Part shown: piece by piece, positions 30,152 through 36,834 of the stretch
Layout: every line of letters starts with the position of its first letter
Numbering within the stretch: the stretch's first letter is position 1
Notes under the pieces: model-generated
The model's database searches: none
The model's input: only the letters and a program-made list of their open reading frames with translations
What the model was told of the DNA's origin: nothing
Made by a program: the position numbers and the translations under genes
NCBI RefSeq assembly: GCF_034044635.1
Contig: NZ_JAXCLX010000001.1
Coordinates: 1,240,001-1,304,000 of the forward strand
DNA: 64,000 bases
Reading direction: 5' to 3'
DNA from: Dongia rigui
GTDB lineage: Bacteria; Pseudomonadota; Alphaproteobacteria; Dongiales; Dongiaceae

Positions 30152-30216
30152 CTTTAACAAGTATTTACTTTTCTAATTTCCAGCGGGACCATGGCCCTCT
30201 TTAAGGAGGCATGGCG

Positions 30217-31794
30217 ATGGCGTGGATCGATGTGGCGGCGGCCGATGAACTGGCGGCCGCGAAGAAGCTGGTGGTCCGGCATGAGGGCCGCCAGATCCTG
30301 CTGCTGGAGACCGCGGCCGGGCTCTTCGCCTGCGTCAATCGCTGCCCGCATGAAGGCTATCCGTTACGCGAAGGGAGCCTCAGTGGTGACGCCGGAACCT
30401 GCGTCCTCACCTGCAACTGGCATAATTGGAAATTCGATCTGATGAGCGGCGAAACCTTGGTCGGCGGCGACAAGCTGCGCCGGTTTCCCATCCGCCGAAC
30501 CGACACGCGCATCGAAATCGACATCACCGCCGATGACGCCACCGCCAGGCGCGCCACCATCCTCGCCGGGATCGAGAAAGCTCTTTACGACGACGACGCA
30601 CAGCGCCAGAGCCGCGAGATCGCGCGCCTGATGCGCTTGAAGCTCGATCCGCTCGATGCCGTCCGCCAGGCGCTCATCTGGGCCAGCGACCGTTTGGAAT
30701 TCGGCACCACCCATGCCATCGGCGCGGCACCCGACTGGCTGACGCTGGCGCGAGACGTACCCGCCGAAGACTGCCTCGTCGCCCTGGGCGAAATCCTGGC
30801 GCATCTCTCCGACGATGCGCGCGATCGGACGCGCTACCCCTTCGCCGCGGGCACCGCGGATTGGGACGAAGCCAAATTCGCCGCCGCTGTCGAGGCCCAG
30901 GACGAAGCCGTGGCCCTGCGCCTGATGCGCGGTGGCCTTGCCCGCCCGCTTTCCACGGACATCTGGCGCCGCGTGCTGACGAAAATCGCCCTCGCCCATT
31001 ACGCCGATTTCGGACACGCGCTGATCTATGCCGTGAAATCGATGGACCTTGTCGACTTGCTGGGGCCGGCAGTGGCGGAACCGCTGCTCAGCCCCTATGT
31101 CCGTGCGCTCTGCTACAGCACGCGCGAAGACCTACTGCCGGAATTCCGCAGCTATGCGGCCGAACTCGCCCGCTGGGGCCAAGCGGATTCAGGACCGGCA
31201 TCGATCGGCATCGACATGTTGCGGCGTGGCTCCGCCAAATCGGCGATGGCGCTTGTTCGCGGCTGGTCGGCCACTGCGGGGCGGCAGGTGATCTGGCCGG
31301 CTTTGCTTGAAACCGCCGCCTGGCAATTGCTCCATGCTGACGAAGCCCGATTCTGGAGCGTTGACCAGCGTCTCTCGGAAAACGCCAATTGGCTGGATCT
31401 CACCCATACGCTGACCTTTGCCGATGCCGGCTGGCAGGCGGCCACCCTTTCACCAGAACTTTGGCCGGCGATCCAGCTGCAGCTTGCCTGCTTCGTCGGC
31501 CGCAACACGGCCTTCGTCGATCCCGAATGTGACGTGGCGCACTATCGTGTTGAGGACCCTGGCCTTTTCTGGCGCGAGGCGCGGTTGGGCTTGCTTGACC
31601 ATGGGCGTGGCCGCTTCATTATTTCGGCACATCTCACCAAGACCTTAATGGCCGCAGAACGCCTGGCGTCGGGCCAACCCCATCTGGCGCCCTTGCTGGC
31701 CAGCGCACTCAACCGCTTCCTGAAAGCGCCGATCAAAGAACGTCATACCCGCCGCACCGCACGCCAGATGCTGGACCTGGTGGCGCAGGAATAG
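30217..31794 (+). CDS. Rieske 2Fe-2S domain fused to a large helical domain
   Basis: The 525-residue protein has an N-terminal Rieske domain with ligands Cys43 and His45 in CPH and Cys66 and His69 in CNWH, the WKFDL fold ending, and a further Cys62. Residues about 100-525 form a predicted all-helical region with repeated His-containing helices (ALAHYADFGHALIYAVK, DLTHTLTFADAGW, FIISAHLTKTL). No ring-hydroxylase iron triad is visible. The helix pattern vaguely recalls questin-oxidase-like proteins, but that is a guess. AAGGAGG seven bases before ATG 30217 decides the start over ATG 30211. Function unknown; electron-transfer oxidation is plausible. Confidence 0.75.
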   Translation: MAWIDVAAADELAAAKKLVVRHEGRQILLLETAAGLFACVNRCPHEGYPLREGSLSGDAGTCVLTCNWHNWKFDLMSGETLVGGDKLRRFPIRRTDTRIEIDITADDATARRATILAGIEKALYDDDAQRQSREIARLMRLKLDPLDAVRQALIWASDRLEFGTTHAIGAAPDWLTLARDVPAEDCLVALGEILAHLSDDARDRTRYPFAAGTADWDEAKFAAAVEAQDEAVALRLMRGGLARPLSTDIWRRVLTKIALAHYADFGHALIYAVKSMDLVDLLGPAVAEPLLSPYVRALCYSTREDLLPEFRSYAAELARWGQADSGPASIGIDMLRRGSAKSAMALVRGWSATAGRQVIWPALLETAAWQLLHADEARFWSVDQRLSENANWLDLTHTLTFADAGWQAATLSPELWPAIQLQLACFVGRNTAFVDPECDVAHYRVEDPGLFWREARLGLLDHGRGRFIISAHLTKTLMAAERLASGQPHLAPLLASALNRFLKAPIKERHTRRTARQMLDLVAQE

Positions 31795-31915
31795 GCGCCG
31801 ACAAGGCACCCAGGAAAAGGTTCATGACATAATCGGTGGCGCGTGATGGCGCGCACTGGACGGTCCCCCGGCCCCCGCCTATCTTTTCGGGCAGGGACAA
31901 CATCGTTCATTCATC

Positions 31916-32419
31916 ATGATCATCGATCCATCACTCCTTGCCTTATTGGCGGGACCGATTGCCATATCGATCGCCAGCCGCGACGCCGGCCTGCGCCCCA
32001 GTGTGGTGCACGCCTATGGCTGTCGTGTCGTCGGCGACGGTCAACGGCTGCGCCTCTTCGTCCTGCGCGATGAGGCACGCCAGCTGCTTGCCGATATCGC
32101 CGCGAATGGCGAGGTGGCAACCGTCTACAGCGACGTGCGGTCGTTCCGCTCATTGCAGATCAAGGGCAGCGACGCCGTGATCGAACCATTCGATGCCGAG
32201 GATGCTGCAGCCCATGTGAAGCATCATCGCATCACCGCGGCGGAACTGGTGGCGCTGGGTTATGCGGCGCCCCTGGCACATGGCTATTTCAGCGCGCCGA
32301 ACAAATCGGATCTGGTGGCCGTTGCCTTTACGCCACATGACATTTTCCAGCAAACACCTGGGCCTGGCGCCGGCGACCGATTGACGGCCGCCAAGAATAC
32401 CGATGGAGGCCGCAGATGA
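31916..32419 (+). CDS. PNPOx-like split-barrel flavin-type protein
   Basis: This 167-residue protein has a beta-barrel pattern of the pyridoxamine 5'-phosphate oxidase-like superfamily: ATVYSDVRSFRSLQIKGSDAVIE and the C-terminal FQQTPGPGAG motif typical of a small family often labelled pyridoxamine phosphate oxidase-like. FMN or heme binding is possible; true PNPOx activity is unlikely because the substrate residues are not evident. It overlaps the next gene by four bases (ATGA), so the two are probably made together and may form a complex. Confidence 0.7.
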   Translation: MIIDPSLLALLAGPIAISIASRDAGLRPSVVHAYGCRVVGDGQRLRLFVLRDEARQLLADIAANGEVATVYSDVRSFRSLQIKGSDAVIEPFDAEDAAAHVKHHRITAAELVALGYAAPLAHGYFSAPNKSDLVAVAFTPHDIFQQTPGPGAGDRLTAAKNTDGGRR

Positions 32420-33756
32420 CCCGCGTCGCCCTGGCCGATCTGCGCGCCGCACTCGAAGGCGCCATTCCATCCGAAATCGCCACCTGCGATGCCGGCGGCA
32501 TTCCCAATGTCAGCGTCATTTCCGACGTTCACTATGTCGACGCCCAGCACGTTGCGATTTCCTATCAATTCTTCAGCAAGACCCGCGCCAATATCCTCAT
32601 CAACCCGCATGCCACGGTCCTGCTGAAGCATCCCGCCACCTGTGCGCAGTACCGGCTGCATCTTGCCTATCTGCGCACCGAGATGGAGGGACCGCTGTTC
32701 GAAACCATGCGCGCCAAGCTCGCCGGCATTGCGTCGCATGAAGGCATGTCCGGCATATTCAAACTATTGGGTGCTGACATCTATCACGTCGAAGAGGCTG
32801 AAATCGTGCGCGCCGACATGCTGCCATTGCCGCCGCCGCACGCACCGCTGCTGGCCGCCTTGCGCCAGACCCTGCCGCGCCTGCGCGCGGCGCGCGATCT
32901 CGACAGCCTGGTCGCGACCTTGCTGTCATCTTTGCGCAGCGACTTCCGACTGCCCCATGTCATGCTGCTGATGGCCGACATGGCATGTGGTCGCCTCTAT
33001 ACGGTGGCGAGCCAGGGCTATGAGGAATCCGGTGTTGGCGCCGAGATATTGCCCGGCCAGGGCGTCATCGGCGTGGCGGCGCGCGAGCAGACGCCGATCC
33101 GCATCGCCCATGCGACGCGCGAATATCTTTACGGCCGCGCCATTCGCGATGCCTTGCGCGCCAGTCCCATGGCGGCGCGATTGGAGACGGAAATTCCGCT
33201 CCCTGGTCTGGCCGACAGCGGCAGCCAACTGGCCGTGCCGATCCTGAACGGCACCGAGTTGATGGGGGTTATCTATGCCGAGAGTCCGGAGCCTGGCCGC
33301 TTCGGCTATGACGAGGAGGATGCCTTGATGATCCTTGCCAGCGCCGCCGGCATCGCCATCCAGGGCTTGCAGGGTGATGCCGACGACAGCGTCGCCCCGA
33401 GCGAGGGCGACGTCACGACGGGTAGCGGCACGCCGCTCGTCATCCGCCACTATGCCGCCGATGACAGCGTCTTCATCGACGACGAATATGTGATCAAAGG
33501 TGTCGCCGGTGCCATTCTGTGGTTTCTGCTCGGCGAGTACGCCCGCACCGGCCGGATCGAGTTCACCAACAAGGAATTGCGTCTGGCGCCGCAGATTCGT
33601 CTGCCGGAATTCTCGGAGAACTTGGAAGCGCGCCTCATCCTGCTGCGCCGCCGTCTTGCCGAACGCAGCCAGCACCTGACCCTCGACAAGGCCGGGCGCG
33701 GCCGCCTCCGCCTGGCCCTTGCGCGCCCGGTGCAACTGGTCGAAGCCGAAGGCTGA
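32416..33756 (+). CDS. PNPOx-like barrel, GAF and C-terminal helical domain fusion
   Basis: A 446-residue three-part protein. Residues 1-130 form a split-barrel flavin-type domain (VSVISDVHYVDAQHVAISYQF, PHATVLLKHP). Residues about 145-310 are a GAF domain (LPGQGVIGVAAREQTPIRIA, LAVPILNGTELMGVIYAES). Residues 350-446 carry a conserved-looking segment (DDEYVIKGVAGAILWFLLGEY, EFTNKELRL, LEARLILLRRRL) with the look of a winged-helix output domain. This suggests a cytoplasmic redox or ligand sensor coupled to a regulatory output. It overlaps the preceding gene (ATGA). Domain boundaries are estimated by eye. Confidence 0.72.
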   Translation: MTRVALADLRAALEGAIPSEIATCDAGGIPNVSVISDVHYVDAQHVAISYQFFSKTRANILINPHATVLLKHPATCAQYRLHLAYLRTEMEGPLFETMRAKLAGIASHEGMSGIFKLLGADIYHVEEAEIVRADMLPLPPPHAPLLAALRQTLPRLRAARDLDSLVATLLSSLRSDFRLPHVMLLMADMACGRLYTVASQGYEESGVGAEILPGQGVIGVAAREQTPIRIAHATREYLYGRAIRDALRASPMAARLETEIPLPGLADSGSQLAVPILNGTELMGVIYAESPEPGRFGYDEEDALMILASAAGIAIQGLQGDADDSVAPSEGDVTTGSGTPLVIRHYAADDSVFIDDEYVIKGVAGAILWFLLGEYARTGRIEFTNKELRLAPQIRLPEFSENLEARLILLRRRLAERSQHLTLDKAGRGRLRLALARPVQLVEAEG

Positions 33757-33786
33757 CGGCTGCGGGCACGCGGTGCCCGCAGCACC
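33757..33786. terminator. Hairpin between convergent genes
   Basis: A perfect 10-bp stem (33760-33769 with 33773-33782) with a GCG loop sits between the convergent stops of the GAF fusion gene and the hemerythrin-like gene. No T tract follows, so termination strength is uncertain. Confidence 0.5.
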
Positions 33787-34572
33787 CTAAGCGAGATCGA
33801 CGACGAGGGCCGCCCGCTCGAACGCGCTCAAATGCGGCTTCACCATGTCGAGCACGCCGGCAAAGAGTTCGGGCGGCATGCCGGCCTGCATGCCGCGCAT
33901 CATGGCGGCGCGCTGCTGGCGTGTCACATTGGGGAGAATCCAGCGCAGCCAGGTCATCATGCGCTCCGGCTTGATATGGGCGTGGATCTGGTGCTCGATC
34001 GCCAGGAGTTCGGCATCCGAATAATGCTGCCACAGCAGTTCGGTATTGGCGCTCTCCTCGATCTCCATATGCGCGAAGTTCTCGGCGACGAAGGTCGCCA
34101 ACAGCCGATAGAGCACCTTGAAGGCGCGCTCGCGCCCCAGTGGGTCAGCCGCCGCTGCCTCGTCCAGGCGCGACGTCAACGCGTCAATCGCCTTGACGTG
34201 ATGCCTGTGGTCGTCGGCACAGGTGCAAGATGAACCCGGCACGACCCTTTCCATCGCCGTGTGGAGGAAATTGTTCTCGTGCTCGAGATGCTCGCGGCAG
34301 AGCTGCAGCAGATCGGCAATGGCAGCCAGCGTCTCGGCACGATGGGTAATGCTGTCGAGATCGACGCGGCCCAGCCGGACCACGGCATCACTCATCGCCG
34401 CGCGCAGGCCCTTGTGGACGGCATGGTAGATCTCGTGCCGCTTGGGCGCCGCCGCCGCGTCATTGGCGGCCATGCGGGCGATGAAGTCGGGCGAGGATGC
34501 GGCCGGGACGGCCGGGCGCGGCTGGTATCCCGGAACCAGCGGAAAGGCTTCAACCTGAGTACGAGCGTTCAT
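33787..34572 (-). CDS. Hemerythrin-like domain protein
   Basis: This 261-residue cytoplasmic protein has a hemerythrin-type four-helix pattern with His and Glu residues: KRHEIYHAVHKGLR, CREHLEHENNFLHTAME, DDHRHHVKAIDAL and FAHMEIEESANTELLW. A second helical part follows (residues 190-261). Such domains bind a di-iron centre and sense or carry oxygen, NO or iron. It faces the Rieske/flavin/GAF genes convergently. Its 5' region continues into a 157-base gap before the EnvZ stop, in which a short dyad is the only structure I see. Confidence 0.82.
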   Translation of the reverse strand: MNARTQVEAFPLVPGYQPRPAVPAASSPDFIARMAANDAAAAPKRHEIYHAVHKGLRAAMSDAVVRLGRVDLDSITHRAETLAAIADLLQLCREHLEHENNFLHTAMERVVPGSSCTCADDHRHHVKAIDALTSRLDEAAAADPLGRERAFKVLYRLLATFVAENFAHMEIEESANTELLWQHYSDAELLAIEHQIHAHIKPERMMTWLRWILPNVTRQQRAAMMRGMQAGMPPELFAGVLDMVKPHLSAFERAALVVDLA

Positions 34573-34706
34573 GTCGGTATCCTTGGGTTGGGAGCCGGCA
34601 GACCTGAGGCGCCGGCGACGCGCCCATAAGTGCGCCCGGCACCCGGCCGACGCATGCTAATTTCCCCCTCAGGAACCGTAAGTTTTCGCTAAGACAGCGC
34701 AATCAG

Positions 34707-36093: not shown

Positions 36094-36834
36094 TCAATCC
36101 GGCCGCAGCACATAGCCGATGCCGCGCACGGTCTGCAGATAGCGCGGGAAACGCGGGTCGTCTTCGATCTTGCGACGAAGCCGCGTGACCTGCACGTCGA
36201 TGAGGCGCGAGGCGCCGACCTCGACCACATTGCCGTCGGGCGCTTCGGCACCGAACTCGTCCCCTTCCCCCACGCCCCTTGTCTGCAATTCGTCGCGGCT
36301 CACCGGCTGGCCGGCACGGCGCGCCAGGGTGGTGAGGAGCTCGCTCTCGCCCTCGGTTAGATGCACGATGTCGCCGCCCTTGTAGAGGCGGCGGCGCTCG
36401 AGTTCGAAGGCGAAGGCACCGAATTTGACCGTGCCGGCCGCAACCGGCGGCGGCGCCACGCGCGGCTGCGCGCGCTTGAGGATCGCATTGATGCGCAGGA
36501 CCAGTTCCTTCGGCTCGAACGGCTTGCCGAGATAATCGTCGGCTCCCGTCTCCAGCCCGTTGATGCGGTCCTGCACTTCGCCCATGGCGGTGAGGAGCAG
36601 AATGGGCACGCTGCTCTCCAGGCGTAGCGCGCGGGTGAGGTCGAGGCCGCTTTCCCCCGGCATCATGATGTCGAGGACGAGGAGATCGAAGGAAATGCTC
36701 TTGAGCTTGGCGCGCGCATCCGCCGCGTCGATCGCCACGGTGACGCGAAAACCCTGTTCGCCCAGATAGCGCGCGATGAGGTCGCGCAGGCGCTTGTCGT
36801 CATCGACGACCAGGATATGGGCGTGGGCGCTCAT
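36094..36834 (-). CDS. OmpR-family response regulator
   Basis: This 246-residue regulator has a receiver domain with VVDDDKRLRDLI, the phospho-acceptor Asp in LLVLDIMMPGESGLD and the conserved Lys in GKPFEPKELVLRI, then a winged-helix DNA-binding domain (about 140-244) ending in DPRFPRYLQTVRGIGYVLRP. Within the wing region an insert of about 12 residues (GVGEGDEFGAEAP) is present relative to many family members. It lies between the MarR gene (three bases away) and the EnvZ-like kinase, forming one operon. Confidence 0.94.
   Translation of the reverse strand: MSAHAHILVVDDDKRLRDLIARYLGEQGFRVTVAIDAADARAKLKSISFDLLVLDIMMPGESGLDLTRALRLESSVPILLLTAMGEVQDRINGLETGADDYLGKPFEPKELVLRINAILKRAQPRVAPPPVAAGTVKFGAFAFELERRRLYKGGDIVHLTEGESELLTTLARRAGQPVSRDELQTRGVGEGDEFGAEAPDGNVVEVGASRLIDVQVTRLRRKIEDDPRFPRYLQTVRGIGYVLRPD

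Follow-up and report, generated by a model that had tools for sequence, protein, structure and literature searches.

We identified a regulator-operator-target unit on a 64-kb stretch of DNA from Dongia (Alphaproteobacteria) (the window, meaning the whole stretch that was analysed), which consists of the adjoining genes p2 and p3, a direct repeat and the hemerythrin-like gene p4 (Table 1). The family of the regulator is apparently undescribed, and a search of the open-access literature returned no relevant paper on the p2-p3 architecture. In the reading that we consider probable from comparative sequence analysis, p2-p3 is a one-component, heteromeric, redox- or gas-responsive transcription factor that has p4 as its target via the repeat. 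An earlier note had described four genes, p1 to p4, as a candidate redox- or gas-sensing module with its own output. The four open reading frames are real and lie where it had placed them, including the ATGA overlap of p2 and p3 (32416-32419), and its Rieske, split-barrel, GAF and hemerythrin assignments were upheld by Pfam and by homolog and family profiles, those of the barrels and p4 having been weak initially. The evidence supports a redox- or gas-type detector with an output of its own in the case of p2-p3-p4, because these genes are linked in distant genomes, p3 combines a sensor with a probable DNA-binding domain and an operator-like repeat lies 5' of p4; p1 is not a member.

Table 1. 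Features of the p2-p3-p4 unit and its upstream neighbour in the window.
Feature	Position	Strand	Basis or remark
p1, Rieske and helical protein	30211-31794	+	Not a module member; independent conserved family upstream of p2-p3
p2, 167-aa split-barrel (PNPOx/HupZ-like) protein, partner of p3	31916-32419	+	Pfam PNPOx_N, family alignment, PDB profile match
p3, proposed transcription factor subunit	32416-33756	+	Pfam GAF, AF2 model, PDB fold match
p4, hemerythrin-like di-iron protein, proposed regulated target	33787-34572	-	Invariant ligands, co-occurrence; convergent with p3
Operator-like site upstream of p4	34653-34698	+	Best match in the window with the matrix; Dongia footprint

The p2-p3 pair and its hemerythrin-like neighbour

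Full-length p3 homologs were found in at least 20 genomes, among them members of Azospirillum, Rhizobium, Sinorhizobium, Pelagibacterium, Cupriavidus, Pseudomonas and Tistrella. In nearly all p3 loci p2 lies immediately 5' of p3, in most of them with a stop/start overlap of the ATGA/GTGA type; judged by gene order, the two genes are translationally coupled throughout Proteobacteria. The PNPOx_N match of p2 is weak (5e-4 in the window, under the Pfam cut-off), and its family profile matched HupZ/2htd in the PDB profile comparison (2e-3). The layout of p3 comprises a split barrel (residues ~1-132), a GAF domain (~145-320; Pfam 7e-13) and a C-terminal winged-helix-like domain (~340-446). Its N-terminus is of the PNPOx type (Pfam 5e-5) and matched the FMN protein 3in6 by profile (2e-5) and in the PDB fold search (TMt 0.71), so that the assignment of p2 and p3 to the PNPOx-type split-barrel family is weak yet consistent across Pfam, profile and fold. 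The single-chain AF2 model of p3, built with 22 sequences, has a pLDDT of 83.6 and a pTM of 0.81, and its top PDB fold match is the GAF domain of PtsP. By sequence and fold the p3 GAF domain is nearest to those of PtsP and NifA, which differ from p3 in input and output domains. Likewise, p2 and the p3 N-terminus share their fold and a weak profile match with PNPOx FMN split barrels and HupZ/HutZ heme proteins (3in6, 5esc, 3tgv), but are two different, coupled chains, one of them fused to a GAF and an output domain, and p2 ends in a C-terminal QTPGPxAG-type signature that is invariant in the family alignment. A [SNA]KT..N segment is typical of the flavin phosphate site in PNPOx-type folds; it is conserved in the p3 N-terminal barrel (K55, T56, N59) and absent from p2 in the family alignment, a suggestive hint of flavin binding by p3.

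The C-terminal domain of p3 has OmpR/PhoB-type topology in the AF2 model (residues 341-444), with three strands, a helix and a further, short strand, followed by two helices and then a hairpin, in the order b-b-b-a-b-a-a-b-b and a local pLDDT mostly of 81-91, with one stretch at ~70. Pfam and PDB sequence searches with this domain gave no match, Trans_reg_C (PF00486) was not detected by Pfam in 17 p3 members, and the 16 PF00486 matches of its own genome do not include p3. Comparison with an OmpR-type DNA-binding profile yielded an hhalign score of 16.7, against up to 17.0 for the shuffled null, and none of the 50 PDB fold matches listed covered the C-terminal part. The winged helix proposed earlier thus agrees with the AF2 topology and found no counterpart in Pfam, PDB sequence or profile comparison; we regard it as probable from that topology and the repeat. 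Since sequence comparison gave no homology signal, the likeness to OmpR/PhoB is rated as an analogy, drawn from predicted topology and operator geometry. OmpR/PhoB-type winged helices bind direct repeats about one helical turn long. For the PhoP operator, for example, 7-bp motifs with a 4-bp spacer are described (PMC4832192). p3 resembles this class (PhoB, PhoP, KdpE) in predicted strand-helix order and in an operator of direct repeats with an 11-bp period, but it differs in lacking a receiver domain (PF00072, Pfam), a phosphorylation partner and detectable sequence similarity, and in its split-barrel and GAF input.

The Pfam hemerythrin match of p4 is sub-threshold in the window (0.0068) and reaches 1.8e-7 in a homolog, and the p4 family profile matched the hemerythrin domain of FBXL5 (5e-5) with the di-iron ligand columns aligned, given what we take to be the FBXL5 ligands. 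The invariant residues H53, H95, E99, H122, H168 and E172 correspond to the predicted His/carboxylate di-iron ligand pattern on four helices (Hemerythrin HHE), which p4 has kept like FBXL5 and bacterial hemerythrin-domain proteins; H98, H104, H125 and E173 are invariant as well. The p4 subfamily differs from FBXL5 and other hemerythrins in being largely restricted to genomes with p3 and in a conserved C-terminal extension. Among 289 alphaproteobacterial genomes, 11 had a strong p4 match, ten had full-length p3 and nine had both (P = 1.6e-14 by genome and 5e-9 by genus, with shared ancestry ignored). In the shared genomes p4 and p3 are neighbours, except in the Dongia genome G005, where they are ~6 kb apart. 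Adjacency of p4 to p2-p3 extends over about eight families, being found in Dongia, Rhizobiaceae, a probable Tistrella and other alphaproteobacterial families as well as outside the class (G034, G228), and orientation is convergent or divergent, with a same-strand p4-p2-p3 run at L159. Judged by co-occurrence and linkage, p4 belongs with the p2-p3 pair.

Neighbours of p2-p3 otherwise change from locus to locus. Loci without p4 often carry instead a cytochrome c gene (L160-L164, L104), an FMO-like gene (L073, L076, L103, L104), a cupin and an arylamine N-acetyltransferase gene (L074, L077) or a gene for a small COX1/DUF2871-like membrane protein (L011, L101). G583 and G666 encode the p3 barrel as a gene of its own and have the GAF domain in one protein with a class III nucleotide cyclase; G583 also has a p2 homolog. 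Such a fusion of the split-barrel/GAF input fits the expectation for a sensor module, and the simplest reading of these arrangements is a sensor module with interchangeable outputs. The input joined to a class III cyclase was seen at L165:8468-11442, where an HD domain is also present, and at L123.

A phased direct repeat in promoters of module genes

The repeat, which was first recognised in divergent promoters of p3 loci, is composed of T[CG]CTAA-type units with an 11-bp period, arranged as 2+2 or as four in tandem upstream of module genes. The exact double unit T[CG]CTAA-N5-T[CG]CTAA had 21 matches in 726 kb of p3 loci, each within or adjoining the module, and none in 333 kb of control loci. 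These matches lie in p2, p4, FMO, cupin or cytochrome c promoters and, at L078, directly after a split p3 gene. Genome-wide, 14 of the 20 matches in 23 genomes were at the module, and in eight of these genomes all were. Several genomes that do not belong to the class have three or four phased units 5' of cytochrome c genes, and G034 has them 5' of p4. A four-unit matrix, trained on part of the scored loci and behaving the same on held-out loci, placed the best site of a p3 locus beside the expected target, except in Azospirillum, G002 and the cyclase loci, and gave background scores in control loci and at p4 genes without p3. The site is lacking at p4 of genomes without p3 (L186, L187) and at the cyclase-output locus L165, and the matrix found none in the Azospirillum loci or G002. 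The Azospirillum pairs L071 and L072 have no recognisable operator and adjoin neither p4 nor cytochrome c. An unlinked four-unit site lies 5' of a second cytochrome c gene of the same family in G700, a case in trans; G047, with an unlinked cytochrome c site that is weak (17.4 bits) and in reversed orientation, may be a weaker case of this kind. The exact TGCTAA double repeat also occurs in the Dongia genomes G002 and G006 (L209:3301, L210:3267), in the divergent promoter of genes for a secreted protein and a CHASE2-like membrane protein, which are possibly a further target.

When the training set of the matrix was restricted to loci outside Dongia, the site upstream of p4 scored 20.7 bits, the highest value of the window on both strands; the null had a mean of 9.7 (sd 2.4) and reached at most 19.5 in 60 simulations. 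The four units (TGCTAA at 34655, CCCTCA at 34666, CCGTAA at 34676, CGCTAA at 34687; spacing 11-10-11) lie in the p4 promoter, within the 159 bp that separate p4 from the upstream histidine kinase gene. Across five Dongia genomes the footprint of the site is conserved and its flanks diverge, almost all invariant intergenic columns falling inside the site. The exact repeat has no match in the window's own genome, where the p4-promoter copy is degenerate, and no operator was found in the window's own p2 promoter. In G005 the site still stands beside the displaced p4, and in G007 it has outlasted p4, p2 and the N-terminal part of p3. There, an intact four-unit operator-like site (L107:10652-10690) is flanked by the truncated p3 on one side and the gene for the histidine kinase on the other and is, by its position, a fossil promoter after p4 loss. 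Separately, an AT-rich stretch, ATGGTGAATAAATC.TAAA...GTGTTAACGAA, is conserved in two Dongia genomes (window 42956, minus strand; L106:874, plus strand); its relation to the operator is not obvious.

The Rieske protein p1

Homologs of p1 begin at the second ATG (30217), the start also used in the earlier note. A Rieske domain (PF00355, 7e-13) at residues 5-81 is followed by ~420 helical residues, and the AF2 model (mean pLDDT 89.7) contains a Rieske ferredoxin domain and a helical domain that resembles no known family. The helical part had neither a Pfam nor a PDB match; a questin oxidase (PF14027) was considered for it and dropped, as a profile match was absent. The full-length family is present in ~26 of 289 alphaproteobacterial genomes. 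Its invariant residues H168, H263, H269, H399, H464, H474 and K477 could form a candidate metal site supplied by the protein's own Rieske centre.

Proposed mechanism and alternatives

We propose that the p2 split barrel pairs with the N-terminal split barrel of p3 to create a cofactor site, most likely for FMN and possibly for heme or F420, which would read a redox or gas signal. Through the GAF domain of p3 this signal would reach the C-terminal winged-helix-like domain, predicted to bind the 11-bp-period repeats in the p4 promoter, and p3 bound there would exert control, of either sign, over the hemerythrin gene. Elsewhere, this regulator-operator pair would act on a gene for a cytochrome c, a flavin monooxygenase, a cupin or a COX1/DUF2871-like membrane protein in place of p4. 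Genome comparison lends good support to the proposed action of p2-p3 on p4 via the repeat.

The repeat might instead serve a classical OmpR-type response regulator, with p2-p3 as an enzyme or cofactor carrier co-inherited with p4. An OmpR-type response regulator (36094-36834) and histidine kinase pair is encoded directly upstream of p4 in the window, 11-bp direct repeats are typical of the OmpR class and the p3 C-terminus has no sequence match to OmpR-type domains. We nevertheless consider this unlikely, as the site accompanies p3 at loci without a nearby response regulator, occurs where cytochrome c, FMO or COX1-like genes stand in for p4 and is absent at p4 without p3, and p3 carries its own C-terminal domain with the predicted order of a winged helix (AF2). 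That p2-p3 is a redox enzyme complex which contacts p4 or cytochrome c and exchanges electrons or a ligand with it would suit the redox or O2/NO-type character of every partner and the frequency of flavoenzymes among PNPOx-type barrels. However, the partners have unrelated folds and probably reside in separate compartments, the cytochromes c beginning with a signal-peptide-like stretch; their one common feature is the upstream DNA repeat, and in homologs the output domain is exchanged for a cyclase, which makes such a complex quite improbable.

A single redox-sensing module of all four genes, including the Rieske protein, appears very improbable. The four are adjacent in Dongia (the window and G003, and G005 except for p4), but p1 is independent of p2-p3-p4 in every other genome and also within Dongia. 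The four-gene set is unsupported because p1 homologs lie away from p2-p3 outside Dongia, with p2, p3 and p4 found at none of 20 loci inspected there, and because p1 presence is uncoupled within the genus: G007 kept p1 but no longer has p2, p4 or the N-terminal part of p3, and G002 kept p2-p3 and has no p1. The neighbourhood comparison, which the earlier note had suggested as a check on whether the genes stay together in distant genomes, therefore refutes the four-gene module, as the neighbours of p1 vary freely, and upholds p2-p3-p4; by gene context p1 is an ordinary bystander.

Returning to p2-p3 as a transcription factor, we tentatively extend the proposal: a heteromeric split-barrel site spread across two genes may represent a new class of sensory input, coupled through GAF to a winged helix or a class III cyclase in a role like that of PAS/LOV, with a dedicated multi-repeat operator and a small di-iron/heme regulon of the O2/NO type. 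Hemerythrins are frequent in bacteria and, to our knowledge, neither the regulation nor the function of most of them is established. With an apparently undescribed factor family defined together with its operator and targets, a bacterial hemerythrin gains a named, testable regulator, and if this regulator does read a flavin- or heme-type cofactor, it would reveal the signal that calls for hemerythrins.
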